A stretch of DNA of 64,000 bases from Siminovitchia fordii DSM 16014 = CIP 108821 (GTDB lineage Bacteria > Bacillota > Bacilli > Bacillales > Bacillaceae_C), in contig NZ_KB894689.1 of NCBI RefSeq assembly GCF_000374565.1, positions 1 to 64,000 of the forward strand, written 5' to 3'. The notes below the pieces were generated by a model. The model searched no databases, was not told the DNA's origin, and worked only from the letters and a program-made list of their open reading frames with translations. Of the stretch, positions 26,584-41,443 are shown piece after piece. A program made the translations under genes and the position numbers. How positions within the stretch are numbered: the stretch's first letter is position 1; every line of letters begins with the position of its first letter.

Positions 26584-26600
26584 AGATGGTGGGTCATTCG

Positions 26601-27767
26601 ATGAACTATGTTGATATTGCATGTAGAAACGTTCAATTAGAAGAAGGCAGGCAAGTAGTGGAACAATTGCTGATTGAGTCCTATTTAAAACCAGGTATTT
26701 CAACAAAAGAACTTTCCCGCTCCTTGAAAATACCTGTCCCTATCACGGTTGCAATTAGGAATGAACTGGCAAAAGCGGGTGCCCTGATATCTAGTCGGGG
26801 CACAAGATGTACTTTACATGGCAAAAGATTTGTAGAGTTTGAACTGGGGTATCAAAGTTTTAAAAAAGAGTTGTGGAATGAAATAAAGAACAGTGGGCAC
26901 TCTTTCAAACTGGAGGAGCTGTTGGAAAGATATCAAGATATTTATAATCTAAGGCCCCAAATAAACGCTGCCATTGATCAGTCAAAGTGTACCTCTCAAA
27001 CCAGCTTTAAACGTGCCATCCATGCCCTCCAATCCAATTTTGTTATCGGTAAAAAAATACTCTGCTTAGGAGATGATGATTTAGTCAGTGTTTCACTTGC
27101 AATCATTCTAAAAGAGCTATTACCGAACAGGAATGTTCATACAAAGATACAGGTAATAGATATGGATAATAATGTCTTGGAATATATTGGGGACATCTCT
27201 CAACAATACAACTTGGGGATTGACTGCTTGCAGGGGGATTTGAGAGAACCGCTGCCAACAGAAATGATGGGGAAATTTGACTGTATTTTTACAGATCCGC
27301 CATATACACTGACTGGTCTTTCACTGTTTCTTTCTAGGGGGATTGAAGCACTGAAAAACGAAATTGGATTGAAAATATATTTATCCTATTCGCATAAACA
27401 TCCTAATTTCATGTTAAATATTCAAGAAGAACTTACCAACTTGGGTTTGTCCGCAACTGAAATTATTCCAAATTTTAATGAATACGAAGGAGCACAAATA
27501 CTGGGTGGGAGCGGGCAACTTATCACGTTGTCTACAACAAATAAAACAACTTCGTTGCACACCGATAAATTTGAAGTACCGTTGTATACAGGTGAGATAA
27601 AACAGACGCTGCGCAAGTATATTTGTAAGAGATGCAGTAGAATTTATCATGTCGGTTTGGAACAAAACTTTACAACAATCGAACAATTGAAAGAGGAAGG
27701 GTGTAGTGCCTGTCAACATAATACCTTCAACTTAATAAAAAGACAGGTAAAAAAATTTGAAAAATAG
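26601..27767 (+). CDS. N4-bis(aminopropyl)spermidine synthase family protein (BpsA, DUF43)
   Basis: 388-residue protein of the branched-chain polyamine synthase family. Family knowledge: BpsA transfers aminopropyl groups from decarboxylated AdoMet to spermidine to make N4-branched polyamines in thermophiles. Visible here: N-terminal winged-helix domain (about 15-85), Rossmann domain with LGDDD (156-160), FTDPPY (230-235) at the active site, and a C-terminal pair of CxxC motifs (CKRC, CSAC) fitting a zinc ribbon. ATG 26601 is used, with GGTGGG ahead. The AdoMet decarboxylase next door would provide the aminopropyl donor. Product identity in this organism is inferred. Confidence 0.8.
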   Translation: MNYVDIACRNVQLEEGRQVVEQLLIESYLKPGISTKELSRSLKIPVPITVAIRNELAKAGALISSRGTRCTLHGKRFVEFELGYQSFKKELWNEIKNSGHSFKLEELLERYQDIYNLRPQINAAIDQSKCTSQTSFKRAIHALQSNFVIGKKILCLGDDDLVSVSLAIILKELLPNRNVHTKIQVIDMDNNVLEYIGDISQQYNLGIDCLQGDLREPLPTEMMGKFDCIFTDPPYTLTGLSLFLSRGIEALKNEIGLKIYLSYSHKHPNFMLNIQEELTNLGLSATEIIPNFNEYEGAQILGGSGQLITLSTTNKTTSLHTDKFEVPLYTGEIKQTLRKYICKRCSRIYHVGLEQNFTTIEQLKEEGCSACQHNTFNLIKRQVKKFEK

Positions 27768-27800
27768 TTTAGATAAATTAATAATTAAGTTAATTAAAGG

Positions 27801-28238
27801 ATGAAGATTAGCCGTATGGAATATACAACGGAAGGGATTCATATAACAGCAGATTTATGGGGCATTGAGTCATCAATAATCAAAAATAATTTATTGCTGA
27901 TAGATTTAGCCAAGATTGCAGCCAAGATTTCCGGAGCAACTATAGTATCCGTTCAATTTAAAGAATTTCAACCGATGGGAATGACCGTTGTTATTCTGTT
28001 ATCGGAAAGTCATTTATCCATTCATAGTTACCCGGAAAAGTCTTTCATTGCTGTTGATTGCTATACTTGTGGAGGCAAAGTGGATCCGGAAGCAGCTATT
28101 AATAATCTAATCTCCAGATTGAACCCGATAAAAGTATATGTACGAAAGCTTAAAAGAGGGACAGGAAGTATTTGTGATATGCCAATTAAGTCAAATAATT
28201 TCAATGGTAGCACACTGAAAAGACATACTTATGACTGA
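27801..28238 (+). CDS. speD: S-adenosylmethionine decarboxylase (SpeD family)
   Basis: Pyruvoyl enzyme making decarboxylated AdoMet, the aminopropyl donor. 145 residues from ATG 27801; ATG 27816 (MEYTTEGIHI) may be the true start because AAAGG at 27796-27800 abuts the first ATG. The self-cleavage serine is in ESHLSIHSYPE (Ser73), followed by DCYTCGG with the catalytic Cys. It sits 33 bases after bpsA. A dedicated speD beside bpsA, without a spermidine synthase gene here, argues for a specialised polyamine route. Confidence 0.85.
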   Translation: MKISRMEYTTEGIHITADLWGIESSIIKNNLLLIDLAKIAAKISGATIVSVQFKEFQPMGMTVVILLSESHLSIHSYPEKSFIAVDCYTCGGKVDPEAAINNLISRLNPIKVYVRKLKRGTGSICDMPIKSNNFNGSTLKRHTYD

Positions 28239-28573
28239 ATCTAGAAACAGTTTTTAAAGAGAGTACAATTAGTTCTAAGTTCATAATATGTGATGATCGG
28301 AAGCCGCTTTTGTACAGAAAAGTTGCCTTCAACGTTCAATTTTTCTTTTACATTTTCATACCGTACCGGTTAAAATTTCCTGCAACTAGCACCCATTTTT
28401 CTTTCAAAAGACATAATAGAAAATGGACATTTTAACGATACGAAAGCGAGAAGCGGTGGGAGCAGCAGTTTCATTATTGAACGATGCCAAATGTCTCCTT
28501 TGGGTAATGATTCGGGCTTTTCCACATACAAATAGTGAAAAAGACGTATGAAAAACAAGGAGACTGGCCCTAA
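28239..28573. other. Gene-free stretch between speD and the TerC gene
   Basis: 335 bases with no supported ORF. I looked for a yybP-ykoY manganese riboswitch because TerC-type genes often carry one, and did not see the conserved core. Weak inverted repeats (TTAAAAT/ATTTTAA, 28371-28424 region) exist. No clear promoter. Confidence 0.4.
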
Positions 28574-29269
28574 ATGATCCAAGATTTTCTGCAAGTGTTT
28601 TTTATGACCCTTGTAAGTGATATTGACAACATGTTGATCCTTGGAGCAGTTTTACGAAGGCAATCTTACTTTGAAGTTACCTTTTTAGCCGCTGTTCTGT
28701 TGACCCTTACTCGAACTGTATATGTTTGTATCGTGGAGGGGTTGTCAGGTGTCCCGATGTTTCACTTGTTAACTGGATTCATTTTGCTTTTCATATCCTA
28801 TAAGCTTGTTACAAAGCTTATTTATGGCGTAGAAACACAAAGATTTTCGCGCCGTCCGCGTTCGCTGTTTCACAACATGAAGATATTGGCAACCTTTGCT
28901 GCTACTGACTTTCTGATTTGTTGGGATGGTGTTCTCATCGTTTCAAATATTTCTGATCATATCCTAATCATTTCATTGGGAATTTTTTGCAGTCTTTTAA
29001 TCTCTCTCTATTTTTTGAGGCTGATTATAAAATTGGCTATTGCTGTTCCTTGGATGAATGTTGTTGCAGGGGGCTTTATTGCTCAAAATGCCATTATGGC
29101 ATTAGCAAAGGATCCATGGATGGAAAGTTGGATCAATTATGCAGACACGCTTTTTCCGGAGGTTAACATCGTAAATACGGCTGCCAATGGTGCTGTCATT
29201 ATTATTGCAGTCATTGGCCTTGTGACATATATTAAACATCACCGGATCATCATACACCGGAAGTTTTAA
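28574..29269 (+). CDS. TerC family integral membrane protein
   Basis: 231-residue membrane protein with about seven hydrophobic segments. The TerC-type acidic motif appears as SDIDNMLILGAVLRR in the first helix (other members show GGDNA) and a second as FAATDFLICWDGVLI in the middle. Members such as B. subtilis YceF/YkoY (MeeF/MeeY) export manganese, some to metallate exoenzymes. RBS AAGGAGA at 28558-28564. It is separated from the polyamine genes by 335 bases, so co-regulation is uncertain. Substrate cannot be read from the sequence. Confidence 0.78.
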   Translation: MIQDFLQVFFMTLVSDIDNMLILGAVLRRQSYFEVTFLAAVLLTLTRTVYVCIVEGLSGVPMFHLLTGFILLFISYKLVTKLIYGVETQRFSRRPRSLFHNMKILATFAATDFLICWDGVLIVSNISDHILIISLGIFCSLLISLYFLRLIIKLAIAVPWMNVVAGGFIAQNAIMALAKDPWMESWINYADTLFPEVNIVNTAANGAVIIIAVIGLVTYIKHHRIIIHRKF

Positions 29270-29333
29270 TGTAATAAAGATGAACTAAAGTGCCCGTCCC
29301 CCAAATAAAAAAGAATCATACTCTTTCCTTTTT

Positions 29334-29369
29334 AAGCCCAACGTATTTTTAATGAGAGGGCTTTTTTTA
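29334..29369 (+). terminator. Possible terminator after terC-like gene
   Basis: AAGCCC (29334-29339) and GGGCTT (29358-29363) with an 18-base loop, followed by TTTTTTAT. Confidence 0.55.
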
Positions 29370-29420
29370 TTTATTGAGATAATAAATGGGTGTTCTCAAC
29401 TATGAATATTTAAAAAAACA

Positions 29421-29475
29421 TTGACATTCACAAATTATTCTAATAGTATTTTTACTAAACTACCATGTTACATGG
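29421..29475 (+). promoter_or_regulatory. BCCT gene promoter with GntR operator
   Basis: TTGACA (29421-29426), 17-bp spacer, TAGTAT (29444-29449), then the 13-bp palindrome CCATGTTACATGG at 29463-29475, placed just past the expected start site. The same palindrome occurs upstream of the adjacent gntR gene, so repression by that regulator is likely. Confidence 0.75.
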
Positions 29476-29554
29476 CAGAAAAAGAAAGGAAAGGTGAAAG
29501 CGATTGCCAACAGAACCTCTGTAAATCAACTAAATTTAGAAATGGGGGGATAAA

Positions 29555-31153
29555 ATGTTTGAAAGTTGGAGTTCCATAAGGGAAAAAGTAGATTGGAAGG
29601 TATTTATTATCAGTGGTGGTACTCTGGTGTTTTTTGTCCTGATGTCACTTTTTAAAGTGGATCTTGTTAGTAAATACGTGAATATCGGTTTTGACTTGTC
29701 CATACGATTCTTTGGTGCATATTGGCAAATCTTAATGCTTGCGACGTTTGCAGTTGGAGCGTTTATCGCTTTATCGAAAAGTGGACAGGCAACTCTTGGG
29801 CAAAGTAAGCCTGATATGAGTTTTTTCAAATGGGTAGCTATAATTGTGACTGCTGGACTTGGAGCAGGAGGAGTCTTTTGGGCGGCAGCTGAGCCGATGT
29901 ACTATTTTCTTGAAGTACCACCAATGCATACAGGCATAGCAGCAAGCACAGAAGAAGCAATTGGACCGGCGCTTGCGCAGAGTTATATGTCTTGGGGATT
30001 CACCGCGTGGTCTGTATATGGTGCAATCAGCACCCTTGTGATCATGTATGCACACCATAATAAAGGAATGCCGCTTAAGCCCAGAACCTTGTTGTATCCT
30101 ATTTTTGGAGAAAAAATTAAAGACAGCAAGTGGGGTACCTTCGCAGATGTTTTTTGCATCATTGGAGCTGCAGCAGGAACGATAGGACCAATTGGATTTT
30201 TGGGGCTTCAGGTAAGCTACGGTGTAAACGCTATCTTTGGCTGGTCAGATTCTTTCTCTACGCAGGTTATGATCATCATTGGGCTCACAGCGGTTGTTTT
30301 GGTATCCACCATTACCGGTATAGATAAAGGAATCCAATGGCTCAGTAGGTTAAATGTTAATGTGGCTGTTCTTATCGCCATATTCCTTCTTTTCTTTGGG
30401 CCGGGTGAATTTATTATTAACTCGTTTATTTCATCCATGGGAACGTATGCGACTGAATTCATTAACATCAGCACTTACCGTGGGGATCAAGAGTGGCTGG
30501 GTTACTGGATGTTATTCTTCTTTGGATGGTTTATCGGCTTCGGTCCATTGGTTGCACTTCTTGTTGCAAGGATTTCGAGGGGACGTAAAATCAGAGAAGT
30601 CTTTCTAGTAGTGGCAATTATTGCTCCACTGACTACAAATTTCTGGTTTACTGTCTTAGGTGGAACAGGAATATTTTATGAATTACAAGAAAAAGGTACC
30701 ATCAGCGTTGCACTGACAGAAGGCGGTTTGCCTGCTGCAATCATTGCAATAGCTCAAAGTATGCCATTGGGGACAATCATGCCCAGTATATTCTTACTAT
30801 TAACAATTTTATTCGTAGTCACAACCGTTGATTCCATGTCATATTCCATCTCAATGAGCGTGACGGGGATAGGAGATCCTCCTAAGGCGATTCGGGTATT
30901 TTGGTCCATCATTATGGCAGCCATCGCTGTCATTTTAATAAAAATCGGCGGTGGAGGAATTAGTGCTTTGCAATCCTTTGTTGTCATTGCGGCTGTACCA
31001 GTATCGTTGATTATGCTGCCTCTTTTATGGCATGCTCCGAGGATAGCTAAGAAATTGGCGATTGAACAGGGAATTGTTGCAGAGCAAAAGCCCAGATCGA
31101 TAGATAATCAATTATTAGCACCCAATCAGTATTCTAAATCAGAAGCGAAATAA
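29555..31153 (+). CDS. BCCT family transporter (betaine/carnitine/choline type)
   Basis: 532-residue sodium- or proton-coupled permease with 12 predicted membrane helices. Family marks: SWGFTAWSVYGA, TGIDKGIQWLSRLN, and VALLVARISRGRKIREV at the end of helix 8. The usual tryptophan-rich box before that motif (WxxFYWAWW type) is replaced by LGYWMLFFFGWFIGFGP, so substrate specificity may differ from glycine betaine. Substrates of the family carry quaternary or similar ammonium groups. It shares an operator motif with the GntR-led catabolic cluster that follows and is the likely uptake step for its substrate. Confidence 0.85.
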   Translation: MFESWSSIREKVDWKVFIISGGTLVFFVLMSLFKVDLVSKYVNIGFDLSIRFFGAYWQILMLATFAVGAFIALSKSGQATLGQSKPDMSFFKWVAIIVTAGLGAGGVFWAAAEPMYYFLEVPPMHTGIAASTEEAIGPALAQSYMSWGFTAWSVYGAISTLVIMYAHHNKGMPLKPRTLLYPIFGEKIKDSKWGTFADVFCIIGAAAGTIGPIGFLGLQVSYGVNAIFGWSDSFSTQVMIIIGLTAVVLVSTITGIDKGIQWLSRLNVNVAVLIAIFLLFFGPGEFIINSFISSMGTYATEFINISTYRGDQEWLGYWMLFFFGWFIGFGPLVALLVARISRGRKIREVFLVVAIIAPLTTNFWFTVLGGTGIFYELQEKGTISVALTEGGLPAAIIAIAQSMPLGTIMPSIFLLLTILFVVTTVDSMSYSISMSVTGIGDPPKAIRVFWSIIMAAIAVILIKIGGGGISALQSFVVIAAVPVSLIMLPLLWHAPRIAKKLAIEQGIVAEQKPRSIDNQLLAPNQYSKSEAK

Positions 31154-31175
31154 TTCCCAAAATTTTAATTCCTGC

Positions 31176-31261
31176 TTGACTTTCAAAAATGATTCCTTTA
31201 ACATTTGAGGTAACTTGTATGGTACATGGTAGAGACATCATAATTCTGCCATGGTACATGG
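31176..31261 (+). promoter_or_regulatory. gntR promoter with two palindromic operators
   Basis: TTGACT (31176-31181), 17-bp spacer, TAACAT (31199-31204). Operator copies: GTATGGTACATGG (31217-31229) and the perfect CCATGGTACATGG (31249-31261). A half-like GGTACATG also overlaps the start codon of gntR (31277-31284). The arrangement suggests autorepression. Confidence 0.75.
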
Positions 31262-31281
31262 AAGAAGAGAGGAATGGGTAC

Positions 31282-31950
31282 ATGATTTCGACTATCAGCA
31301 TTACTGCTCAAGTAACCAATGCTATCAGGGATGCCATCGTTACTGGTGAATATGAGCCTGGAAAAAAGCTATCTGAATCTGCTTTATCACAATATTACAA
31401 AGTAAGCCGGACGCCAATTCGGGAGGCATTCAAACAACTCGAAAGGGAAGGATTGGTAGAAATCATTCCGCGAGTGGGGACTTGTGTGACAAAGCCTACT
31501 GAAAAAGAATTGATTGAATTATTTAGAGTCAAAGAAGTATTGGAAGGGCTTGCGGCCGGACTCTTAGCGGAAGTTGGCGATGCCGAGACAATTAAAGAAT
31601 TGGCAGAATCAGTTGACATGATGAGGGAAGCTGTTAGCACAAATAATCACAAACTTTATGTAGAGGCGAATAATATTTTCCATAGAGTGATCTTGGATGG
31701 TTCTGACAACTCTAAGCTAGTTTACTTACTAAACATCTTGTTAAATCAAATTCCTTATAACCGATATGTGTTTTTAAGCATTGAAGTTCCTAATCGCTTA
31801 GAGAAGTCCTTAGAGGAACATGAAAAGATTCTAAAAGCAATACAAGCTGGGGATAAAGAATTAGCTGAAAAAAGAATGCGTGAGCATGTAAGTGCGAGCG
31901 GTCAGCAGCTGCAAAAAGGAATAGCGCAAAAACTTTTAAAAAACAAATAG
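31282..31950 (+). CDS. GntR family transcriptional regulator (FCD type)
   Basis: 222 residues from ATG 31282 (GAGAGGAA at 31267-31274); the longer frame from 31189 runs through the promoter and operators and is rejected. N-terminal winged helix with GKKLSESALSQYYKVSRTPIREAFKQLEREGLVEII, C-terminal FCD ligand-binding domain with FRVKEVLEGLAAGLLAE and metal-site-like His residues (FHRVIL, EEHEKIL, MREHV). Heads the catabolic operon and probably represses it and the BCCT gene until the substrate or an intermediate binds. Confidence 0.88.
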   Translation: MISTISITAQVTNAIRDAIVTGEYEPGKKLSESALSQYYKVSRTPIREAFKQLEREGLVEIIPRVGTCVTKPTEKELIELFRVKEVLEGLAAGLLAEVGDAETIKELAESVDMMREAVSTNNHKLYVEANNIFHRVILDGSDNSKLVYLLNILLNQIPYNRYVFLSIEVPNRLEKSLEEHEKILKAIQAGDKELAEKRMREHVSASGQQLQKGIAQKLLKNK

Positions 31951-31968
31951 AGATAGGGGAAATGTGAT

Positions 31969-33132
31969 ATGAAATTTGGAATATTTGCTAACCTCTCTGG
32001 TCAGGGGAGGCATGAGGAATATCACAAGGTTTTAGATGAAGCGCGCGAGCAGGCGATTTATTGCGATGAAAATGGATATGACTCCATATGGTATACAGAA
32101 CATCATTTTGGACATGAAGGCAATGAATTAATTTCAAATCCTTTAATGATCGGTGCTGATATTGCCGCACATACAAAACGAATCAGAATCGGACAGGCCG
32201 CAAATGTCATTACATTTTGGCATCCTCTCCGTTTGGCGGAAGATATTGCGATGCTGGATCAACTTAGCAAGGGGCGCGTGGAAGTAGGACTAGCTCGAGG
32301 TCTTTACGGCCGGGAAGCAGCGAATTTAAATGCAAAAGCAGATCCTAAAAACCAAGCGCAAAACCGAGCGTTGTTTGACGAGACACTTGAAATTCTGAAG
32401 AAAGCTTGGTCAAACCGATTCTTTTCACATAAAGGTGAATTTTATGAGTTTCCACCGGAAGGACTTAAGTGGAATCATCCAATGAGCCCTTCTTCTCCAG
32501 AATTTATGGATATGGAGAAAAATGAAATCAATAAAATTTCTATTATGCCTGGGCCATATCAAAAACCATTTCCGCCTTTATGGCAAACAATTGACTCACC
32601 TCGCTCTATAGAACTTGCCGCACAGAACAATATTAAGGGAATCTTCTGGATGCCGACTGTAAAAGAGTTGAAAGGTCGCTTTAAGCTCTATCAAGAAAAG
32701 GCATCTGAGGCTCGTGGCTATGAGGTTCCGATGGGAGAAGGCATTGCGCTTGTCCGAGACGTTTATGTTGCTGAAACTATGGAACAGGCTCGAGAGGATG
32801 CGGCTGAGGCAGTGCTCAATAACTATCGCTGGATCTGCCATTGGAGAGGTCTTGGGAACTTAATGGATCCAGGGGAAGAAGTGAAGCCGGGCCAAGAGCT
32901 TTCTTATGATTTTTTACATCCACGTAACCTGCTCTTTGGAACACCGGAATATGTAACTGAAAAAATTAAGGAGCTAAAAGAAGAACTAAATCTTCAATAC
33001 TTATTGCTCTGGGTAAATCATAATGGTTTACCTCATGAAAAGATGATGAAGAGCTTAAAATTATTCACAGAAGAAGTAATGCCGAATTTTTCAGAGACAA
33101 CAGGAGGTAAAGTTCATGTTAGAAATTCGTAA
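31969..33132 (+). CDS. LLM class flavin-dependent monooxygenase
   Basis: 387-residue bacterial luciferase-like oxygenase component (TIM barrel, uses FMNH2 from a separate reductase). Motifs: FANLSGQGRHEEY, WYTEHHFG, NVITFWHPLRLAEDIAMLDQLSKGR and GLARG. Known enzymes of this class cleave C-S or C-N bonds or oxidise N-heterocycles, including the trigonelline monooxygenase oxygenase subunit TgnB as I recall it. The flavin reductase at 37272 in the same operon could be its partner. It overlaps the next gene by 17 bases. Confidence 0.88.
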   Translation: MKFGIFANLSGQGRHEEYHKVLDEAREQAIYCDENGYDSIWYTEHHFGHEGNELISNPLMIGADIAAHTKRIRIGQAANVITFWHPLRLAEDIAMLDQLSKGRVEVGLARGLYGREAANLNAKADPKNQAQNRALFDETLEILKKAWSNRFFSHKGEFYEFPPEGLKWNHPMSPSSPEFMDMEKNEINKISIMPGPYQKPFPPLWQTIDSPRSIELAAQNNIKGIFWMPTVKELKGRFKLYQEKASEARGYEVPMGEGIALVRDVYVAETMEQAREDAAEAVLNNYRWICHWRGLGNLMDPGEEVKPGQELSYDFLHPRNLLFGTPEYVTEKIKELKEELNLQYLLLWVNHNGLPHEKMMKSLKLFTEEVMPNFSETTGGKVHVRNS

Positions 33133-33694
33133 AGTTTACACAGCAATAGAGGAGACGAGAATTGAAGGCGGGAAAGAATTAGATAATCCCATAAGAATGA
33201 TCACCACAATGCTTGTGATGAAAAATCCTTGGGCAGGGCAAGGATTTGTAGAGGATTTGATGCCTAAAATTAATGAATACGCTCCCGAAATCGGTGAAGT
33301 ATTGGTAAATGAACTCTTTAAACATATTGAATCTGCAGATGATGTGGAGGCATTCGGAAAAGCGGCAGTCGTAGGTGTAGATGGAGAAGTTGAACATGCT
33401 TCAGCTTTTATACATACATTGAAATTTGGAAACAAATTCCGAGATGCCGTTAAAGGGAAAAGCATACTGAGCTTTACCAATAAAAGAGGTGGATCAGGTT
33501 CGCCTGTAACCATCCCAATGGTCCATAAAAATGATGAATCACAGCGCTCTCATTACATTACTTTTGAAGCTTCAATTCCTGATGCGCCGAGAGCGGATGA
33601 GATTGTAGTAGCAATTGGAGCTTCAACTGGAGGCAGACCGCATCCAAGGACTGGTAACCGCCATTCAGATATGGTTGAAATGGGGCTCGTTTAA
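33116..33694 (+). CDS. Amino acid synthesis family protein (PF06684, DUF1185)
   Basis: 192-residue protein of a family with solved structures but no settled biochemical role; the family name 'amino acid synthesis' is historical. Visible blocks: MLVMKNPWAGQGFVEDL, GKAAVVGVDGEVEHASAFIHTLKFGN, and C-terminal GASTGGRPHPRTGNR. AGGAGG at about 33102-33107 precedes ATG 33116. It overlaps both neighbours, so it is translationally coupled with the monooxygenase and hydrolase and probably acts in the same pathway. Confidence 0.8.
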   Translation: MLEIRKVYTAIEETRIEGGKELDNPIRMITTMLVMKNPWAGQGFVEDLMPKINEYAPEIGEVLVNELFKHIESADDVEAFGKAAVVGVDGEVEHASAFIHTLKFGNKFRDAVKGKSILSFTNKRGGSGSPVTIPMVHKNDESQRSHYITFEASIPDAPRADEIVVAIGASTGGRPHPRTGNRHSDMVEMGLV

Positions 33695-34494
33695 TGCCAG
33701 AAGCTAAGTATGGTCATAGACATATTTTTTATGAGGAAAAGGGAGAAGGAGAGCCTATAGTCTTCATTCATGGAGTAGGTTTGGATCATACAATGTGGCA
33801 TGGACAACTTGATGAACTGGCTAAATATTATAGAGTAATTGTCTACGATATGATAGGGCATGGGAGGTCTGAACAACTCCCAGGCCCCTATTCCCTTTCC
33901 CAATTTGTTGAGCAGTTATCAATCCTGCTAGACTACTTAAATATTAAAGAATGCCATCTTGTCGGATTTTCAATGGGTGGAATGGTGGCCCAGTCTTTTG
34001 CAATAAAAAACAAAACAAAATTGAAAACACTTACGATTATGAGTGCGGTGGCCAACAGAACAGACGAACAAAGAAGTGCCATCTTAAAAAGAGTTAATGA
34101 AGTAAAAATCAATGGAGCGGCCAGTACTATAGAACCTGCAATCCAGCGTTGGTTCAATCATGGGTTTCTCGGAGCAAATGAAGAAGCTGTCAATGAGATC
34201 AGAACAAGGCTTCAGAAAAATAATTCAGCTTCTTATTTAGCGGCCTACACTTTATTTGCGACTGCGGATAAAGAATTATGGCCGCAGTTGGATCAGATCG
34301 ATGTTCCCACTTTAATTGTAACCGGTGAATATGATGTAGGATCTACTCCGGATATGTCCCGACAGATGCATGAAAAAATCAAAGGCTCAGAGCTTCGAAT
34401 TGTTCCAGATATGAGGCATATGCTTCCAATGGAGGGAGCAGAAATAATAAATGAAATGATACTCTCGTTTATAAAGAAAAGTTCTTCTAGTTAA
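33694..34494 (+). CDS. Alpha/beta hydrolase
   Basis: 266-residue serine hydrolase. Oxyanion region FIHGVGLDHTMW (24-35), nucleophile elbow GFSMGG with Ser93, acid Asp in TGEYDVGS, and a late His in MRHMLPME. ATG shares the last base of the previous stop (TAATG). TgnD of the trigonelline pathway and the acetamidomethylene-succinate hydrolases belong to this fold; a C-N or enamide hydrolysis step would fit between ALDH and central metabolism. The exact substrate is inference. Confidence 0.87.
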   Translation: MPEAKYGHRHIFYEEKGEGEPIVFIHGVGLDHTMWHGQLDELAKYYRVIVYDMIGHGRSEQLPGPYSLSQFVEQLSILLDYLNIKECHLVGFSMGGMVAQSFAIKNKTKLKTLTIMSAVANRTDEQRSAILKRVNEVKINGAASTIEPAIQRWFNHGFLGANEEAVNEIRTRLQKNNSASYLAAYTLFATADKELWPQLDQIDVPTLIVTGEYDVGSTPDMSRQMHEKIKGSELRIVPDMRHMLPMEGAEIINEMILSFIKKSSSS

Positions 34495-34512
34495 AGAAGG
34501 GAGTAAACGGTT

Positions 34513-35997
34513 ATGACAGAGCTTAAAAAATATAACATGTATATAAATGGCGAGTGGACTCCTTCCTCTGATGGAAAGTATTTTAAAAGCTATAATCCGG
34601 CAACCGGGGAAGCATGGTGTGAGGTTGCAGAGGCAACTGCTGAAGACGTGGATAGGGCGGTAAAGGCAGCACAGGATGCTTTCGAAAATTCAGAATGGAC
34701 CAACATGACATATACACAAAGGGGCCGCCTTGTATCAAAACTGGGAGATCTTATTGCCGATAATGTCGAAGAACTGGCAACATTTGAAACAACTGATAAC
34801 GGTAAGCTTATTCGGGAGATGCGGGGTCAATTAAGCTATCTGCCGGAGTTCTATTACTATTTCGGCGGTTTGGCAGACAAAATTCAAGGTAGTACACTGC
34901 CCATTGATAAACGGGATATGTTCGCTTTTACAACACGGGAGCCATTAGGAGTTGTAGCTGCCATAACTCCCTGGAATTCACCACTCTATTTGACAACTTT
35001 AAAATTGGCACCTGCCCTCGTAGCAGGAAATACAATTGTTATTAAACCTTCTGAAGTAACCTCTGCTTCTCTTTTGGAACTGGTTCGGCTGGTGGAAGAA
35101 GCTGGTTTTCCGCCGGGAGTTGTCAATGTTGTCACGGGATTCGGCAAACCAGCCGGGGAAGCACTGACGACACATCCGTTAGTAAGGAAAATTGCCTTTA
35201 CAGGCGGGGAAGAATCAGCCCGTCATGTCGTGCGCAATTCGGCAGAAAACTTCGCACAACTTTCCCTTGAACTTGGTGGAAAGTCACCAAATATCGTTTT
35301 TGAAGACGCTGATCCGGATAACGCGGCTATGGGGATTATCGCAGGTATTTTTGGTGCTTCGGGTCAGAGTTGTGTTGCAGGCTCACGGGCATTTTTGCAC
35401 ACTAATATATATGACAGAGTGATTGAGCGATTAATAGATCGGGTGCAAAGCATAAAAATCGGTGATCCTCTTCAGGATGAAACCGAGATGGGTCCTCTTG
35501 CAACAGAAGCGCAGCTAAAACGTGTTGAGAAATATGTGGAACTTGGAAAGCAAGAAGGTGGACATCTCATATATGGCGGAAAAAAACCTGCGCGACTTGA
35601 AAAAGGATGGTATTTTGAGCCAACAATTTTTGAGCATACCGATAATCAATCTAAAATTACAAGGGAAGAAATCTTCGGGCCCGTCCTAAGTGTAATCCCT
35701 TTCAGAGATGAAGCGGAGGCAATTCAACTCGCAAACAGTACGGATTATGGGCTGGCGGCAGGAATTTGGGCAAGAGACATCGGTAAGGCACATCGGGTTG
35801 CGAAGGCAGTCCGTGCTGGCATTGTTTGGGTTAATACATATAGAAGCATATCACCTATCGCACCCATTGGAGGTTCAGGTCTCAGCGGTTATGGCCGGGA
35901 AGGCGGTTATGAAGCAATATATGATTATACACAAAGTAAAGTCGTTTGGGTGAACACATCCTCAGAGCCAATTCCGGATCCGTTTATTATGAGATAA
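34513..35997 (+). CDS. Aldehyde dehydrogenase family protein
   Basis: 494-residue NAD(P)-dependent dehydrogenase. ITPWNSP (151-157), cofactor loop FTGGEESA (229-236), catalytic Glu254 in LELGGKSPN and Cys287 in GQSCVAGSR. RBS AAGAAGGGAG ahead of ATG 34513. In the pathway model it would oxidise a ring-opened semialdehyde, like TgnC. It lies 18 bases after the hydrolase. Confidence 0.92.
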   Translation: MTELKKYNMYINGEWTPSSDGKYFKSYNPATGEAWCEVAEATAEDVDRAVKAAQDAFENSEWTNMTYTQRGRLVSKLGDLIADNVEELATFETTDNGKLIREMRGQLSYLPEFYYYFGGLADKIQGSTLPIDKRDMFAFTTREPLGVVAAITPWNSPLYLTTLKLAPALVAGNTIVIKPSEVTSASLLELVRLVEEAGFPPGVVNVVTGFGKPAGEALTTHPLVRKIAFTGGEESARHVVRNSAENFAQLSLELGGKSPNIVFEDADPDNAAMGIIAGIFGASGQSCVAGSRAFLHTNIYDRVIERLIDRVQSIKIGDPLQDETEMGPLATEAQLKRVEKYVELGKQEGGHLIYGGKKPARLEKGWYFEPTIFEHTDNQSKITREEIFGPVLSVIPFRDEAEAIQLANSTDYGLAAGIWARDIGKAHRVAKAVRAGIVWVNTYRSISPIAPIGGSGLSGYGREGGYEAIYDYTQSKVVWVNTSSEPIPDPFIMR

Positions 35998-36026
35998 TCC
36001 AAGATTACGAATGTGGAGGGATATCA

Positions 36027-36593
36027 GTGAGACTATTGGGTATCTCAGGAACGATCACGGGATCAAAAACTGGGATTGTAATTAGAAAAATCCTGAAAGA
36101 AATAAAGCAAAATCATCCTGATATTATGACCGAACTATTGGATTTGAAAGACTATCAAATTCAATTTTGTGACGGCCGGGATCCTTCAACATATGAGGAG
36201 GAAACAAAAAGAGTAATAGAGATCGTCGCATCCGCAGATTTTTATCTGGTTGGAACACCAATATTTCAAGGGTCAATTACAGGGGCATTAAAAAATTTAT
36301 TCGATTTGATTCCGCCACCTGTTTTTCGGAACAAAGTAATGGGTTTTATCGCAACAGGCGGTACGTATCAACATTATTTGGTTATTGAAAATCAATTAAA
36401 GCCCATTGCCGGTTATTTCCGCTCTTATGTGGCTCCAGGCTTCGTTTATGCACACAATGATCACTTTGACAGCAATAATCAAATTGTAGATCTCGATCTA
36501 TTAGAGCGGATGTCGAATTTGGGGGAAGAAATGGTGAGGATGAGCCGTGCTCTTACACATCAAATGCTGGAAACATCTAACTTCTATGGTTAA
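36027..36593 (+). CDS. NADPH-dependent FMN reductase family protein
   Basis: 188-residue flavodoxin-fold protein. Start GTG 36027 with TGGAGGG at 36013-36019; the longer frame from 35946 overlaps ALDH. FMN loop GISGTITGSKTG (residues 5-16) and TPIFQGSITGALKNLFDL. It could supply reduced FMN to the LLM monooxygenase, giving the cluster two potential reductases of unrelated folds. Confidence 0.85.
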   Translation: MRLLGISGTITGSKTGIVIRKILKEIKQNHPDIMTELLDLKDYQIQFCDGRDPSTYEEETKRVIEIVASADFYLVGTPIFQGSITGALKNLFDLIPPPVFRNKVMGFIATGGTYQHYLVIENQLKPIAGYFRSYVAPGFVYAHNDHFDSNNQIVDLDLLERMSNLGEEMVRMSRALTHQMLETSNFYG

Positions 36594-36645
36594 GAATCTA
36601 TTCCTGATGCCACAGGCAGCTATTTGAAAGTCAGGAGGTAATCTA

Positions 36646-36924
36646 ATGAATATAGAAGAAGCGATTCATTATTCAGATCTATATTTTGTCAATTACTGTT
36701 TTGAGAAATATGGCATTAATCGCGGAGTATATAATACCATTGATCGTTGGTTCTATGAACAAGGCATGGATAACATCCTTGAACGCCGGAAAAATATTAT
36801 TTTATTCCTAGAATATATTCAAAAAGACAGATATGAAAATAAGCCGCGAATTAAATTCGGAAACGGCGGTTTGAAAATTAAATTAAATAACTATTTATAT
36901 CCAAAAGATGAAATGGCCATTTAA
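36646..36924 (+). CDS. Conserved-context hypothetical protein, 92 aa
   Basis: Not recognised. ATG 36646 has an excellent TCAGGAGGTAATCT box, so it is almost certainly translated. The chain is rich in aromatic residues and Asn (DLYFVNYCFEKYGINRG, WFYEQGMDNILERRKN) with a basic C-terminal half (KPRIKFGNGGLKIKLNN). No signal peptide or membrane helix. Its place between the FMN reductase and YciI genes suggests an accessory role in the same pathway. Confidence 0.65.
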   Translation: MNIEEAIHYSDLYFVNYCFEKYGINRGVYNTIDRWFYEQGMDNILERRKNIILFLEYIQKDRYENKPRIKFGNGGLKIKLNNYLYPKDEMAI

Positions 36925-36945
36925 CTATTATGTGTGGGAGGCGTA

Positions 36946-37221
36946 ATGATGGGGTATTATGCCGCAATGCTTTATATGTTGGATCCTGAAAAGAATAAGG
37001 TAGTCCTCCCTCGACATATTGAATACCTGGACAGGCTTGATAAAGAAGGAAAGGTATTCGCGAGGGGGCCCTTTGCAGATGGGTCAGGCGGCTTAGTAAT
37101 ATATTTAGCTGAATCATTGGAAGAAGCTGCTGCTCTTGCAGAAAATGATCCGCATGTTGTGGAGAAAGTTCGTCGCTTGGAATTAAAAAAATGGAATGTA
37201 CTAGAACAGACTGGTCGGTAA
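36946..37221 (+). CDS. YciI family protein
   Basis: 91-residue ferredoxin-like protein of the YciI/YCII family. Opens MMGYYAAMLYMLDPEKN and shows the conserved RGPFADGSGGLVIY and ENDPHV blocks. GGGAGG at 36936-36941 serves ATG 36946. Family members occur beside oxygenase and dehydrogenase genes and some have dehydrochlorinase-like or hydrolase roles. Here it is part of the catabolic operon; activity is unknown. Confidence 0.8.
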   Translation: MMGYYAAMLYMLDPEKNKVVLPRHIEYLDRLDKEGKVFARGPFADGSGGLVIYLAESLEEAAALAENDPHVVEKVRRLELKKWNVLEQTGR

Positions 37222-37271
37222 TTCGGGGACAGTCTTTATACATACATGGTAAAGCGAAGAGGAGAGAGGAA

Positions 37272-37781
37272 ATGACTGTAACAAAAGAAGCTAAACAACA
37301 ATTGTTCAAAGAAGCACTCGGCAACTATCCTACAGGAGTAACAATCGTGACTACTACGAATGACGAGGGAGTGCCGTTCGGTCTGACGGTAAACTCGTTT
37401 GCATCGGTATCTCTGGATCCGCTGCTTGTCCTCTGGTCAATTGATCACCGCTCATCATCCCTTGAGGCATTCACTAAAGGGAATAAATTTGCCGTTCATA
37501 TTTTGGCTGCGGATCAGGTTGAGACATGCAAAGCTTTCGCTTCATCAAAGGGCGGAAAGTTCAGTCAATGTGAATGGAATACATCCGAATACGGCCTTCC
37601 GATTATTGAAGGGGCTTTTTCTGTTCTGCAATGTGAAGTCCATCAAACCATTGAAGCCGGAGACCATACTATTTTGATTGGAAAAGTCGTTGATATTAAT
37701 GTTGAGAAGCGGGATCCAATGTTATATCATAGAAGAAAATTTGGGTCTATTCCGGCTGAGTTTTATATAGATCACAACTAA
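37272..37781 (+). CDS. Flavin reductase family protein (HpaC-like)
   Basis: 169-residue non-flavoprotein flavin:NAD(P)H reductase. ATG 37272 with AGAGAGGAA upstream. Typical blocks: NYPTGVTIVTTTNDEGVPFG, TVNSFASVSLDPLLVLWSI, and GDHTILIGKVVDI. This class delivers FMNH2 to two-component monooxygenases; TgnA of the trigonelline pathway belongs to it. It is the last gene of the operon and the likely partner of the LLM enzyme at 31969. Confidence 0.9.
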   Translation: MTVTKEAKQQLFKEALGNYPTGVTIVTTTNDEGVPFGLTVNSFASVSLDPLLVLWSIDHRSSSLEAFTKGNKFAVHILAADQVETCKAFASSKGGKFSQCEWNTSEYGLPIIEGAFSVLQCEVHQTIEAGDHTILIGKVVDINVEKRDPMLYHRRKFGSIPAEFYIDHN

Positions 37782-37797
37782 TATATGAAAAGTGATA

Positions 37798-37842
37798 AGC
37801 TCCCAGGTAATGGATAAGTTCCAGTTACCAGGGGCTTTTTTA
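37798..37842 (+). terminator. Terminator of the GntR catabolic operon
   Basis: AGCTCCCAGGTAA (37798-37810) pairs with TTACCAGGGGCT (37825-37836) with minor mismatches, followed by TTTTT. Confidence 0.75.
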
Positions 37843-37859
37843 TTTTGCTAAAATAACCC

Positions 37860-37888
37860 TTGCCGTTCATAGTTTTTGCCTGTATAAT
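37860..37888 (+). promoter_or_regulatory. Promoter of the tetR-MFS pair
   Basis: TTGCCG (37860-37865), 17-bp spacer, TATAAT (37883-37888), 55 bases before the TetR start. CCGTT and AACGG half-sites (37863-37867, 37896-37900) flank the -10 and might be part of an operator. Confidence 0.65.
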
Positions 37889-37942
37889 TTTAAAAAACGG
37901 ATAAAACTTATTTTGTTTATTTGGTTTTGAAGGGGTAATCTA

Positions 37943-38506
37943 ATGAAAGATCGAATTATGCAGGCTTTTGTTGATGAAGTCAAAGATAAAGGAATTAAGT
38001 TTACAATGGATGATCTAGCAGGCAGGCTAGGCATCAGCAAACGCACTTTATATGAGAATTTTTCTTCAAAAGTTGAAATTCTGGAAGCTATTATCGAATT
38101 AACGATTACAGAATTTGATGAAAAAACAGAGGCGATTGTTGAGGATAGCAGTTTATCACTTTTAGAAAAGATAAAAGCGGCCATTATGGTTGTTCCGAAA
38201 TATGATGAGTTTTATGATTTACAAATACTGGAACAGATGAAAAAGTATTATCCCAAACAATGGGAAAGAATGAACCATTCTCTTTCCGAATGGGAAGCCT
38301 TAAAAAACTTGCTTGAACAGGGGATTGAGGAAGGTCTTATAAAAGAACAAAATGTAGAGTTGTTAATGCGGTTAGTCATCGATGCTACGAACCTTACATT
38401 GGACCGGCGTTTCATTTGGGAGAACAGAATAACCGTGGAAGAGGCAATGAATGGTATCGTGAATGTTCTATTATTTGGAATGGTTGAAAGAAATGCCGAG
38501 CCTTAG
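37943..38506 (+). CDS. TetR/AcrR family transcriptional regulator
   Basis: 187 residues. N-terminal HTH: FTMDDLAGRLGISKRTLYENFSSKVEILEAI. The remaining helices form the ligand-binding dimer domain. AAGGGG precedes ATG 37943. The MFS efflux gene follows at 84 bases in the same direction, so it probably regulates its own drug-export operon. Confidence 0.87.
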   Translation: MKDRIMQAFVDEVKDKGIKFTMDDLAGRLGISKRTLYENFSSKVEILEAIIELTITEFDEKTEAIVEDSSLSLLEKIKAAIMVVPKYDEFYDLQILEQMKKYYPKQWERMNHSLSEWEALKNLLEQGIEEGLIKEQNVELLMRLVIDATNLTLDRRFIWENRITVEEAMNGIVNVLLFGMVERNAEP

Positions 38507-38589
38507 TTTTTGTCTCGGCAATCAATCATATTTTTTTGAAAAAAACTTAAAAAACCTAAATAGTTTCCGTGTTTTATGGAGGTGCGAAA

Positions 38590-39816
38590 ATGAACTTTAT
38601 GAAGCAAATGAGCATGAAAAAAAGACTCGGATTAACGTTCGCGATCACCATTTTATTTCTAGATATGTTGCTATACAGCGTTATTATTCCGCTGACACCA
38701 TATTATGAAGAAAACTTCAAAGCTTCGCCAACTTTGATCGGCATTTTGTTTAGCAGCTATTCCATAACTTTATTGCTATGCACAACATACTTTGGAAAAT
38801 TGACAGATAAGATCGGCAGGAAAAAACCGATCGTCATTGGATTGATCGGAATGACTCTTTCGACTATTGTATTTGCGCATCCCGTAAATTTCGAAATCCT
38901 TATTCTCGCAAGAGCGTTGCAAGGCGTTGCTTCGGCAGCAACCTGGACGGCTTCGCTTGCCCTCCTTGCTGATATGTTCGTCAAAAAGGAACGGGCGATT
39001 GCTATGGGGCTTGCCATGACCAGTATGTCAGCAGGAACATTGCTAGGGGCGCCGATAGGGGGCTTTCTAATTGAATTTGGCGGGTATGCGACTCCGTTTT
39101 ATACAATTTCAGTGCTGATGATCGCTGTTATGATCCTGGCGGCTATCTATTTACAGGATGAACAGCGGCCGATTCTTCAGGAACCAAAGAAGGTTGTAGA
39201 CTTGTTAAGGCAGCGCGAGGTCATTTGGATCTTGACCATTATGGTGGTAAGTGAAGGAACGTTGACAATGCTGGAACCTATATTGCCGATTTATTTATCC
39301 GGTACCTTCACCGGAAATTCATTTTTCATTGGCCTGATGTTTGGAGTCATCACATTGGCTTATGGAATAATGGCCCCGGTATCGGGGTTTTTAATAGGTA
39401 AATATACTCCGAGCCGGGTTGTGCTGCTCGGTTTACTTCTTTCAGGGATCATCCTGCCATTCGTTGTTATCGCTAAATCTACCTTGCAAATGGTGCTTGC
39501 CCTATTGTTCTTAGGGGCAAGTATGGGACTCGCCGTTTCACCTACATTAACAATGCTCGGCAATACACAGGGAGACGGAGAAGAAAACTCCTATGGTGCG
39601 TTATATGGTTTATTCAACATATTTTTTGCTGTTGCAGCAATTATCGGGCCTTTTATGGGAGGGGTCCTGACGGATGCATTTACTTCGAAAGTCACCATTC
39701 TTATTGCGAGCGGGGCTATCCTGCTGTGCACATTCGGCCTATCTCTAACTAGAAAACAAAGTATGGGAAAAATGGAGTGCGCACCATCAGTAAATGCTGT
39801 TCATCGAATGGATTAA
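38590..39816 (+). CDS. MFS multidrug-type transporter
   Basis: 408-residue major facilitator with 12 predicted helices. Motif A is GKLTDKIGRKKP after helix 2; helix 5 has GTLLGAPIGGFLIE, resembling the antiporter motif C of drug exporters. ATG 38590 is preceded by GGAGGTG (38578-38584), which excludes the earlier frame start at 38569. Probably drug:proton antiport under the upstream TetR protein. Confidence 0.87.
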   Translation: MNFMKQMSMKKRLGLTFAITILFLDMLLYSVIIPLTPYYEENFKASPTLIGILFSSYSITLLLCTTYFGKLTDKIGRKKPIVIGLIGMTLSTIVFAHPVNFEILILARALQGVASAATWTASLALLADMFVKKERAIAMGLAMTSMSAGTLLGAPIGGFLIEFGGYATPFYTISVLMIAVMILAAIYLQDEQRPILQEPKKVVDLLRQREVIWILTIMVVSEGTLTMLEPILPIYLSGTFTGNSFFIGLMFGVITLAYGIMAPVSGFLIGKYTPSRVVLLGLLLSGIILPFVVIAKSTLQMVLALLFLGASMGLAVSPTLTMLGNTQGDGEENSYGALYGLFNIFFAVAAIIGPFMGGVLTDAFTSKVTILIASGAILLCTFGLSLTRKQSMGKMECAPSVNAVHRMD

Positions 39817-39821
39817 GCCTT

Positions 39822-39862
39822 AAAAGAGATTTGGACGGATTGATCGTCCAAATCTCTTTTCT
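39822..39862. terminator. Bidirectional terminator between MFS and ABC genes
   Basis: Perfect 16-bp stem AAAAGAGATTTGGACG (39822-39837) / CGTCCAAATCTCTTTT (39845-39860). Confidence 0.93.
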
Positions 39863-39863
39863 G

Positions 39864-40550
39864 TTATATTGATGCCTTTTTAAGCAATAAAAAGGAGGCA
39901 GCCATATTAATGAGAATGAGCGGCAGCAACCAATAGGAAAGCTCGGCTGCTGTTTGGGATAATAGCCACTGGAAAATGTCCGACCAAACGTGATAATGAT
40001 GAAACAACAGGACAACAATACTCCCTGCTAGCAAAGTAGACAACGATAATATCAGTATACCTTTTCCGCCATAACGTCGAGCAAAGCTTGAAATGAAAAA
40101 TCCAAGAAAGAACAAAAAGGCTGCTAAAATCATAAACATGGGCAACTTTTCAAGGAAATTGGTTCCATCATTTAAATAAGGAAAGTAGAAAAAGTGGAAT
40201 CTGTTTCCCCAACCATTGCTGATATATTCGATATAAGAAAAAACACCTAGTAAAGCACCGATAGTAAAGCTTGTTGCCAGGCCCATCAAAACTGTACCGA
40301 AAAAATAATCTTTTCGCGTGATAGACATCCCGATGGCAAATGGAAAGGACTGTGCGACCACAATGATTCCAAGCACAAGCGCGTATACAAGAATGGATGT
40401 TACCCCACCTGAATAGAATTTTTCATCATTATTGATTAGTAAACTGACAAGCAGGTTGACCAAAAAGCTTGAAGATAGAATGAGTGAAGGGATATAGAAC
40501 CAGCCCCATTTATCCTTTATATGAATGTTTACAACACTTTGGATATTCAT
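39864..40550 (-). CDS. ABC transporter permease
   Basis: 228-residue membrane protein with six hydrophobic segments, third gene of the minus-strand gntR-ABC operon. No strong family signature beyond an ABC-2-like topology (SIVVLLFHHYHVW loop; C-terminal LLPLILINMAASFLLL). It overlaps the ATPase gene by 4 bases, indicating coupling. Confidence 0.75.
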   Translation of the reverse strand: MNIQSVVNIHIKDKWGWFYIPSLILSSSFLVNLLVSLLINNDEKFYSGGVTSILVYALVLGIIVVAQSFPFAIGMSITRKDYFFGTVLMGLATSFTIGALLGVFSYIEYISNGWGNRFHFFYFPYLNDGTNFLEKLPMFMILAAFLFFLGFFISSFARRYGGKGILILSLSTLLAGSIVVLLFHHYHVWSDIFQWLLSQTAAELSYWLLPLILINMAASFLLLKKASI

Positions 40551-41443
40551 TTGGCCATCACTCCTTTTTGGTTGCGTTTCCCAGTCGTCAAATGTACGAT
40601 TAACTGCTGTAATGAAACCGGCGTTACTTCAAGACCATATGTTTCGGCTTGCTTTTGTCCGGAATCATGTTCAGCCCGAATGACAGTAGCTGAAAGCAAT
40701 CCTCCGAAGGGTTCCTGATGGACAACCTCTTTTCCAGCCAGGAATGTTTCTACTTGGGCCGCTTTGCCAGTAACCGTGTAAGCCATTCCCCTAAGCTCTT
40801 CAGCGTCTTGGTCAATTATAAGCTTACCGTCACCAATCACTAACACATGCTCAAGCAAGTTACTGACCTCATCAATAAGATGGGATGAAAGGATCACCGT
40901 TCGCGGATTTTCTACATAATCCTCCATTAACCGATCGTAAAAAACACCTCGGGAAACCGCATCAAGCCCTAAATAAGGTTCATCGAATACGGTCAGAGGC
41001 GAACGGCTTGCAAGGCCGACAACAATGCCGACTGCAGAGAGCATTCCGCGTGACAGCTTTTTAATCCTCTTCTTTAAGGGCAGGTTGAAATCGTTTATAA
41101 GCGAGTGGGCAAAATCAGCATCCCAATTTGGAAAAAGGGATTTGGACACATCCAATACATCTTTGACTGTAAAATTAACCGGGTATTGCTGGCTTTCTTT
41201 TATAAAGCAGATTTGCCTGAGTACATTTCTATTTTCATAAGGTTTTTCACCGAAAACCTTTATGTCACCGCTTGTGGGGAAAATTTGTGCTGTAATCATT
41301 TTCATCAATGTGGTTTTACCGGCGCCATTCCTTCCGAGAAGACCATATATTTTATTTTTTTGAATTGAAACATTAATGTTTTGTACAGCTTTAAAGCTAC
41401 CGTATGATTTCTCCAATTGTTTTATCTCGATTACTTGCTCCAT
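40547..41443 (-). CDS. ABC transporter ATP-binding protein
   Basis: 298-residue ATPase. Walker A GRNGAGKTT at about residues 37-45, degenerate signature LSRGM in place of LSGGQ, Walker B LTVFDEP, and H-loop SSHLIDE. It resembles YtrB/YhcH-type exporters controlled by small GntR regulators. It abuts the gntR gene (shared base at 41443) and overlaps the permease gene. Confidence 0.9.
   Translation of the reverse strand: MEQVIEIKQLEKSYGSFKAVQNINVSIQKNKIYGLLGRNGAGKTTLMKMITAQIFPTSGDIKVFGEKPYENRNVLRQICFIKESQQYPVNFTVKDVLDVSKSLFPNWDADFAHSLINDFNLPLKKRIKKLSRGMLSAVGIVVGLASRSPLTVFDEPYLGLDAVSRGVFYDRLMEDYVENPRTVILSSHLIDEVSNLLEHVLVIGDGKLIIDQDAEELRGMAYTVTGKAAQVETFLAGKEVVHQEPFGGLLSATVIRAEHDSGQKQAETYGLEVTPVSLQQLIVHLTTGKRNQKGVMAK

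Follow-up and report, generated by a model that had tools for sequence, protein, structure and literature searches.

The 64,000-nucleotide stretch of contig C5 from the 4.5 Mb genome of Siminovitchia fordii that was analysed here (the window) carries two transcription units on its plus strand, between positions 29421 and 37842: a gene for a BCCT-family transporter, followed by an operon led by a GntR-type regulator gene. We consider it just about probable that the two units make up an inducible regulon that resembles the tgn genes of Acinetobacter, employs a different oxygenase and serves the catabolism of an N-heterocyclic quaternary compound, either trigonelline or one closely related to it. 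Our best reading is that of a divergent, separately assembled pathway of the trigonelline type, for which trigonelline is a candidate substrate. Because the luciferase-like monooxygenase (LLM) of the operon falls outside the clade of the Acinetobacter oxygenase TgnB, we do not file the cluster as a tgn locus.

Gene content, distribution and operator

The operon encodes, in this order, a GntR regulator of the FCD type, the LLM, a PF06684 protein, an alpha/beta hydrolase, an aldehyde dehydrogenase (ALDH), an MsuE-like flavin mononucleotide (FMN) reductase, a protein of 92 amino acids, a YciI-like protein and a flavin reductase. From the GntR gene to the ALDH gene, neighbours overlap or lie at most about 20 bases apart (Table 1). 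Pfam scores were 466 bits for BCCT (cut-off 27), 166 for Bac_luciferase, 226 for AA_synth (PF06684), 583 for Aldedh and 156 for Flavin_Reduct, and there were further matches to FCD plus GntR, Abhydrolase, FMN_red and YCII; only the open reading frame (ORF) of 92 codons had no Pfam match. The ten plus-strand genes and the families that a first-pass annotation had read from the sequence are thus borne out. The same holds for its remark that no succinate semialdehyde dehydrogenase (SSADH) was seen: a search of C5:1-64000 with an ALDH query returned no ALDH besides that of the cluster, and hence no SSADH of this family. An ALDH of the GabD/TgnE clade is encoded elsewhere in the genome (C10:98705-100102). 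Rfam, at gathering thresholds, gave no match between 26000 and 41000. The regulator gene most likely starts at 31282, since the longer ORF from 31189 would run through the operator, and the most likely start of the flavin reductase gene is 37272.

Fifteen clusters share the gene order of the window (the window itself, L020, L109, L110 and L180-L190, including those of genomes G027, G361, G342 and eleven more). The genes for GntR, LLM, hydrolase and ALDH are present in all of them, and PF06684 was called in 14; in G832 (L187) an ORF on the opposite strand occupies the place of PF06684 in the longest-ORF listing, and a loss of the gene there is not demonstrated. The immediate neighbours of the cluster in G027, a member of the same genus, are those found in the window. 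Among 397 genomes of the order (a draw without G027), 3 encode a close relative of the LLM; the phylum draw gave 1 of 398, which is the window's own, and the G361 and G342 families gave 10 of 43 and 3 of 29, respectively. PF06684 was found in 2 of the 34 family genomes and in 2 of the 6 genomes that belong to the genus. Broken frames of LLM and ALDH, and probably of GntR and the NCS1-type permease, were seen in G814 (L188), whose genome is 87% complete; they may reflect decay or sequencing error.

A conserved 17-bp operator with the motif TTGYATGGTACATGGTA precedes the GntR operon with 0-1 mismatch in 15 of the 15 clusters (in G342 it lies 5' of an ORF that precedes GntR) and also stands at the transporter gene in 12. 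The 14 loci other than the window contain 37 matches with up to 3 mismatches, against 1.2 after dinucleotide-block shuffling; 80 proteobacterial loci (1.44 Mb) gave 4, with 3 mismatches each, and the motif was not found in the Acinetobacter baylyi, Sinorhizobium meliloti, Arthrobacter or carnitine-linked loci. Taken by itself, the window does not have a significant number of matches (10 with up to 3 mismatches, 6.4 expected; 10 or more in 12 of 100 shuffles), and the copy before the BCCT gene is weak there as in G027 (L020:4911, 3 mismatches), so that the case for the operator rests on the 15 related clusters. No copy with up to 3 mismatches was detected at the transporter gene of G817. The annotation's view that the transporter gene stands under the operator of the operon therefore holds strongly for 12 clusters and weakly for the window itself. 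The operator is evident from its conservation, and the geometry of the sites points to repression. Promoter-like (26 against 25.2) and terminator-like (9 against 7.3) sites in the region are not more numerous than in shuffles, and these calls thus rest on position. Uptake of an osmoprotectant as the sole purpose was rejected, the operator being common to transporter and catabolic operon.

Table 1. Features of the cluster (window coordinates) and, in the last line, further members of the 92-residue family
Feature	Position	Strand	Basis or remark
Promoter-like site TTGACA-17-TAGTAT, transporter unit	29421..29449	+	Consensus match; position just 5' of operator-like palindrome
Operator-like palindrome TACCATGTTACATGGCA before BCCT gene	29461..29477	.	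Weak copy, 3 mismatches to 14-base motif
BCCT-family transporter, altered Trp box in transmembrane segment 8 (three Trp to Phe)	29555..31153	+	Pfam, alignment
Promoter-like site TTGACT-17-TAACAT, GntR operon	31176..31204	+	Consensus match only
Operator TTGTATGGTACATGGTA, exact motif copy	31215..31231	+	Conserved in the 15 clusters
Second, weaker operator-like site	31247..31263	+	3 mismatches
GntR/FCD-type regulator	31282..31950	+	ORF opens 31189; start inferred from homologues
Luciferase-like FMN oxygenase (LLM), insert-bearing, outside TgnB clade	31969..33132	+	Pfam, trees
PF06684 (DUF1185) protein, TgnF-like	33116..33694	+	Pfam, tree, identity
Alpha/beta hydrolase, TgnD family	33694..34494	+	Top scores are PcaD models
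Aldehyde dehydrogenase, near TgnC	34513..35997	+	Pfam, trees
NADPH-dependent FMN reductase, MsuE-like	35946..36593	+	Start uncertain; in 12/15 clusters
92-residue protein, Bacillaceae family	36646..36924	+	No Pfam or NCBIfam match
YciI-like protein	36934..37221	+	Pfam; start uncertain
HpaC/RutF-type flavin reductase	37272..37781	+	ORF opens 37191; start inferred from G027 copy; in 3/15 clusters
Terminator-like hairpin, then T run	37816..37837	+	Count not above shuffles
92-residue family members besides window copy	L009:355-636(-), L140:6986-7336, L141:6947-7252, L142:6986-7267, L143:6941-7315, L167:5421-5717, L168:7815-8171

Enzymes, transporters and proposed pathway

Reference loci were obtained by searching named genomes with an Acinetobacter LLM, and the best 80 of 547 confirmed relatives (LLM 73-98% identical) were used. 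The locus of A. baylyi DSM 14961 (L036) consists of GntR on the minus strand, PF06684, hydrolase, flavin reductase, LLM, ALDH, an NCS1-type permease, a porin (assigned by eye) and SSADH. We take its genes to be TgnA-E from their families and the described pathway, the strain not being ADP1 itself. The window and this locus have six families in common, GntR included, which agrees with the earlier recognition of the enzyme set as that of the tgn pathway. The PF06684 protein and the regulator had been listed as differences from Acinetobacter; both are in fact present in the A. baylyi locus, and TgnF is named in ADP1 in the passages of PMC7913881 used here.

Identities to the A. baylyi proteins are 53% for PF06684, 53% for ALDH, 30% for the hydrolase and 26% for GntR. 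The PF06684 protein of the window groups with those of LLM clusters, apart from the proteins of 18 distant loci of the same phylum and an enamidase-linked one (100/99); a smaller set gave the same grouping (95/97), with one of two Arthrobacter copies falling outside, and the trees do not settle the position of the window protein inside the group. In the ALDH tree, TgnC and the carnitine-linked ALDHs together are the sister group of the window protein (99/99). Its plasmid-borne relatives, 55-57% identical, stem from the LLM/PF06684 clusters of Parasedimentitalea and Aminobacter, to which carnitine-type genes are attached, and of Arthrobacter, and the window is therefore one of a class of clusters whose scope extends beyond trigonelline (4 loci were examined from the best 40 of 3415 plasmid records). 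The hydrolase and A. baylyi TgnD both score best with PcaD-type models; the flavin reductase is 42% identical to that of A. baylyi over 150 residues and lacks its long C-terminal part. The hydrolase and reductase trees are too weak to be relied on. Ten of the 80 proteobacterial loci were entered in the ALDH, PF06684, hydrolase and reductase trees and two in the later ALDH and PF06684 trees, with plasmid loci added.

The transporter is of the BCCT family in 5 of the 15 clusters and of the NCS1 family in the other 10, and the two never occurred together in the stretches read. The 80 proteobacterial tgn-type loci follow the same rule, with NCS1 in 42, BCCT in 6, both in none and neither in 32; some of the latter are cut by contig ends, and others may use ABC carriers, as in rhizobial records. 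BCCT and NCS1 carriers are known for nitrogen compounds. As nucleobase-type and quaternary-ammonium-type carriers alternate, we infer a ligand that is accepted by both, namely an N-heterocyclic quaternary compound or betaine. The NCS1 proteins of the clusters are 31-37% identical to the tgn NCS1, and among the matches listed there was none between them and the enamidase-adjacent NCS1 described below. All 10 NCS1-type clusters contain a second ALDH. Four of them (G817, G816, G820 and G832) add an isochorismatase-fold amidohydrolase followed by an NCS1 gene, which is the sole one in G817 and the second in the other three; the operator precedes this unit in 3 of the 4. The amidohydrolase of G817 scores weakly against nicotinamidase, RutB and biuret amidohydrolase.

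The proposed pathway would run as follows. Bound just 3' of both promoters, the GntR/FCD protein would keep the transporter gene and the operon repressed, as the arrangement of the sites suggests, and would be released by the substrate or by an early product. The BCCT protein would take up the substrate. The MsuE-like reductase, the HpaC-type reductase or both would give FMNH2 to the LLM, which, judged by its family, would open the ring with O2. Following the A. baylyi locus and known tgn chemistry, the ALDH would then oxidise the resulting aldehyde or lactol, the hydrolase would remove a formyl group or open a lactone, and the PF06684 protein would aid the last step to succinate semialdehyde, which an unlinked dehydrogenase would oxidise. 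The role of PF06684 is modelled on PMC7913881, whose passages describe HcdD, of the PF06684 type, as a homologue of TgnF from A. baylyi ADP1 and TgnF as a stimulator of the TgnE-dependent oxidation of succinate semialdehyde; the passages of PMC2954203 treat PF06684 as a structural-genomics family that forms hexamers.

Evidence against the pathway and competing explanations

Several observations weigh against this assignment, and most of them concern the oxygenase. The LLM of the window and A. baylyi TgnB share 28% identity, and in three trees the window protein forms with its relatives a clade of its own, outside the well-supported TgnB clade and the LLMs of the Agrobacterium fabrum type (11 of the 80 proteobacterial loci were used in two trees and 4 in the third, plasmid loci being added; four long-branch rows were left out of the second tree and kept in the first). 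About 26 residues are inserted in it relative to TgnB, and the LLMs of Peribacillus and Sulfitobacter have a similar insert. These LLMs of other contexts are slightly nearer by identity (36% and 30%) than the TgnB rows (25-30%), and the window protein shares 12 signature positions with four other-context LLMs against 7 with TgnB. As sister group, TgnB received a p value of 0.46 in the approximately unbiased (AU) test and the insert-type LLMs of Peribacillus, Sulfitobacter and Nonomuraea one of 0.32; in the third tree, support was 37/23 and p 0.45, with neither placement rejected. Identities, signature positions and insert together lean towards the insert-type LLMs as nearest kin. The alkanesulfonate (SsuD) and pyrimidine (RutA) oxygenases were rejected as affiliations, as both are separated at 100/100 and NCBIfam scores are far below the cut-offs; the placement with alkanesulfonate oxygenases that the first-pass annotation had named as speaking against its proposal was thus not found. 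Of that proposal, a trigonelline system as such is weakened by the identity and position of the LLM, and the option of a distinct version or another N-heterocycle survives.

The other enzymes add to these doubts. A strict clade of ALDH and TgnC, suggested by an earlier tree, was rejected once the plasmid ALDHs were added (AU p 0.00025). The ALDH stays close to TgnC without forming a clade with it alone, and the hydrolase shares 30% identity with TgnD. A Bradyrhizobium ALDH that is 55% identical has no LLM within 8 kb, and a PF06684 protein is present in a 7-hydroxycoumarin locus according to passages of PMC7913881; neither protein therefore proves an N-heterocycle. The HpaC-type flavin reductase, which had been equated with TgnA, occurs in only 3 of the 15 clusters (the window, G027 and G342), and neither reductase was present in the stretch read of L189, which ends at a contig end, or of L190. 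The second ALDH (scored on the G361 protein only) matched lactaldehyde- and sulfoacetaldehyde-type models best, all under the cut-offs, rather than SSADH models; the end product is therefore not fixed. Finally, the BCCT protein shares about 30% identity with those of proteobacterial loci and sits on other branches, for which reasons orthology was rejected; judged from identity and branching, BCCTs are separate recruits in bacilli and proteobacteria. The Trp box of transmembrane segment 8 reads FFGWFIGF in the window and FWAWWVAW in Escherichia coli BetT, and the same change is found in 5 of 5 cluster BCCTs and in 0 of 18 other alignment rows. Trp residues of this segment act in substrate binding in BCCT carriers. 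Since the changed box is common to the cluster BCCTs, their ligand may differ from the trimethylammonium type.

One explanation is a special case of the regulon favoured here: the trigonelline pathway proper, with an insert-type LLM that cleaves the same ring as TgnB and proteins that have merely diverged. The gene set is the same down to GntR and TgnF, BCCT and NCS1 both recur in loci with a TgnB-type LLM, and A. baylyi TgnB had no match at E 1e-50 in the 397 genomes of the order, a search made without a positive control. We nevertheless regard this case as rather unlikely, as an LLM with so low an identity and in a separate clade often means another substrate.

A non-aromatic quaternary substrate, such as a carnitine-like compound or a cyclic betaine oxidised by LLM and dehydrogenase, appears quite improbable to us. 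It would suit the two top-ranked plasmid ALDHs (best 57%), which lie in clusters of LLM, PF06684, hydrolase and RidA with carnitine-type genes and a 3-keto-5-aminohexanoate cleavage protein, the ProX-type betaine transporter adjoining the A. fabrum-type cluster, and the 9 BCCT and 28 ALDH matches in the S. fordii genome; however, the carriers of 10 of the 15 clusters belong to NCS1, a family that transports nucleobase-like rings, and no carnitine-type gene is among the ORFs of 26000-41000. A coumarin, lactone or cyclic ketone attacked by the LLM in a Baeyer-Villiger-like reaction, with BCCT as a bystander, is very unlikely, for although it would accommodate PF06684 in the 7-hydroxycoumarin locus (PMC7913881) and the lactonase- or metallo-beta-lactamase-fold hydrolases beside the insert-type LLMs of Peribacillus and Sulfitobacter, 12 of the 15 transporter genes have the operator, and nitrogen compounds are what both carrier families are known for.

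Returning to the N-heterocyclic regulon, enamidase genes deserve attention. In G027, a second PF06684 gene (L021:10488-14589) has as neighbours genes for an enamidase (2vun, E 1.6e-138), an NCS1 permease and a hydrolase of the isochorismatase fold, and an enamidase is encoded within about 3.5 kb at 6 of the 18 PF06684 loci of distant genomes of the phylum. The product of enamidase in nicotinate fermentation is 2-formylglutarate, which would be homologous to 2-formylsuccinate, the compound to be expected on the route from trigonelline. A more comprehensive scenario, which we put forward as doubtful, is that bacilli built their own trigonelline-type pathway with an oxygenase other than TgnB and that PF06684 is a general enzyme of N-heterocycle breakdown, with the formyl-dicarboxylate that ring opening leaves, or the enamine of this compound, as its substrate; its occurrence in LLM clusters as well as next to enamidase genes would then be accounted for. 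Amidohydrolase and NCS1 under the same operator would, in some clusters, widen the diet to an amide, e.g. 1-methylnicotinamide.

If the favoured regulon reading is true, ring cleavage of the trigonelline type, which is described in Acinetobacter and is likely to occur in rhizobia, also takes place in Bacillus-like bacteria with a different oxygenase, and genome surveys based on TgnB would overlook the bacillus version. The paired transporter alternatives and the common operator offer a direct route to naming the substrate. The enamidase link provides a testable role for the PF06684 family, for which the passages of PMC2954203 give no reaction.

Accessory genes and comparison with known systems

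Across the 15 clusters the MsuE-like reductase occurs 12 times, the 92-residue protein 13 times and YciI 10 times. A further protein is encoded in L110, L189 and L190; the copy in L190 scores with DHBP synthase models and weakly with those of riboflavin kinase, in each case under the cut-off, and a DHBP synthase-like protein would fit a demand for FMN. The 92-residue protein belongs to a family of Bacillaceae with ten invariant residues in 14 sequences (D11, F14, C18, N25, G27, N30, R47, R48, F54 and G72). Members were found in 13 plasmid records and at ten places in four genomes, and their neighbours include LLM oxygenases, flavin reductases, riboflavin kinase, subunits of hydroxyarylic acid decarboxylase and, by eye, a Rieske-type oxygenase.

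Among the literature matches listed, none had a title that dealt with a cluster of this kind in bacilli. The known system most like the window is the tgn-type locus of A. baylyi, with GntR, PF06684 (TgnF), hydrolase, flavin reductase, LLM, ALDH and an adjoining transporter. In contrast to it, the window cluster has no SSADH gene (TgnE lies in the fetched stretch of 37 of the 80 proteobacterial loci) and no porin gene, contains BCCT in place of NCS1, follows another gene order, adds the MsuE-type reductase, YciI and the 92-residue protein, has a flavin reductase of 169 instead of 310 amino acids, and possesses an operator motif that was not found in the A. baylyi locus and an insert-bearing LLM outside the TgnB clade. 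A tgn-type cluster on pSymA of S. meliloti (L011:7835-18567), beside noeAB and nodL, is a candidate for the trigonelline-use genes that the title of a 1991 paper places in the pSym symbiotic region.

The insert-type LLMs of Peribacillus frigoritolerans (L009) and Sulfitobacter (L010) are like that of the window in their insert but have other neighbours, and no PF06684 is annotated in the stretches read. LLM, PF06684, hydrolase and ALDH stand together, as in the window, in loci of the A. fabrum type (L024), of Parasedimentitalea and Aminobacter (L191, L192) and of Arthrobacter dokdonellae (L193), but their LLMs group with TgnB (99/100), apart from that of the window; the Arthrobacter GntR is 46% identical to the window's. 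On the L191 and L192 plasmids, LLM, ALDH, hydrolase, RidA and PF06684 are joined to the carnitine-type genes and the cleavage protein, perhaps as another quaternary amine route. In loci of Pseudovibrio, Ruegeria and Gemmobacter (L093, L095, L099, L090, L078 and L079), a BCCT gene adjoins a TgnB-type cluster, just as one adjoins the operon of the window.

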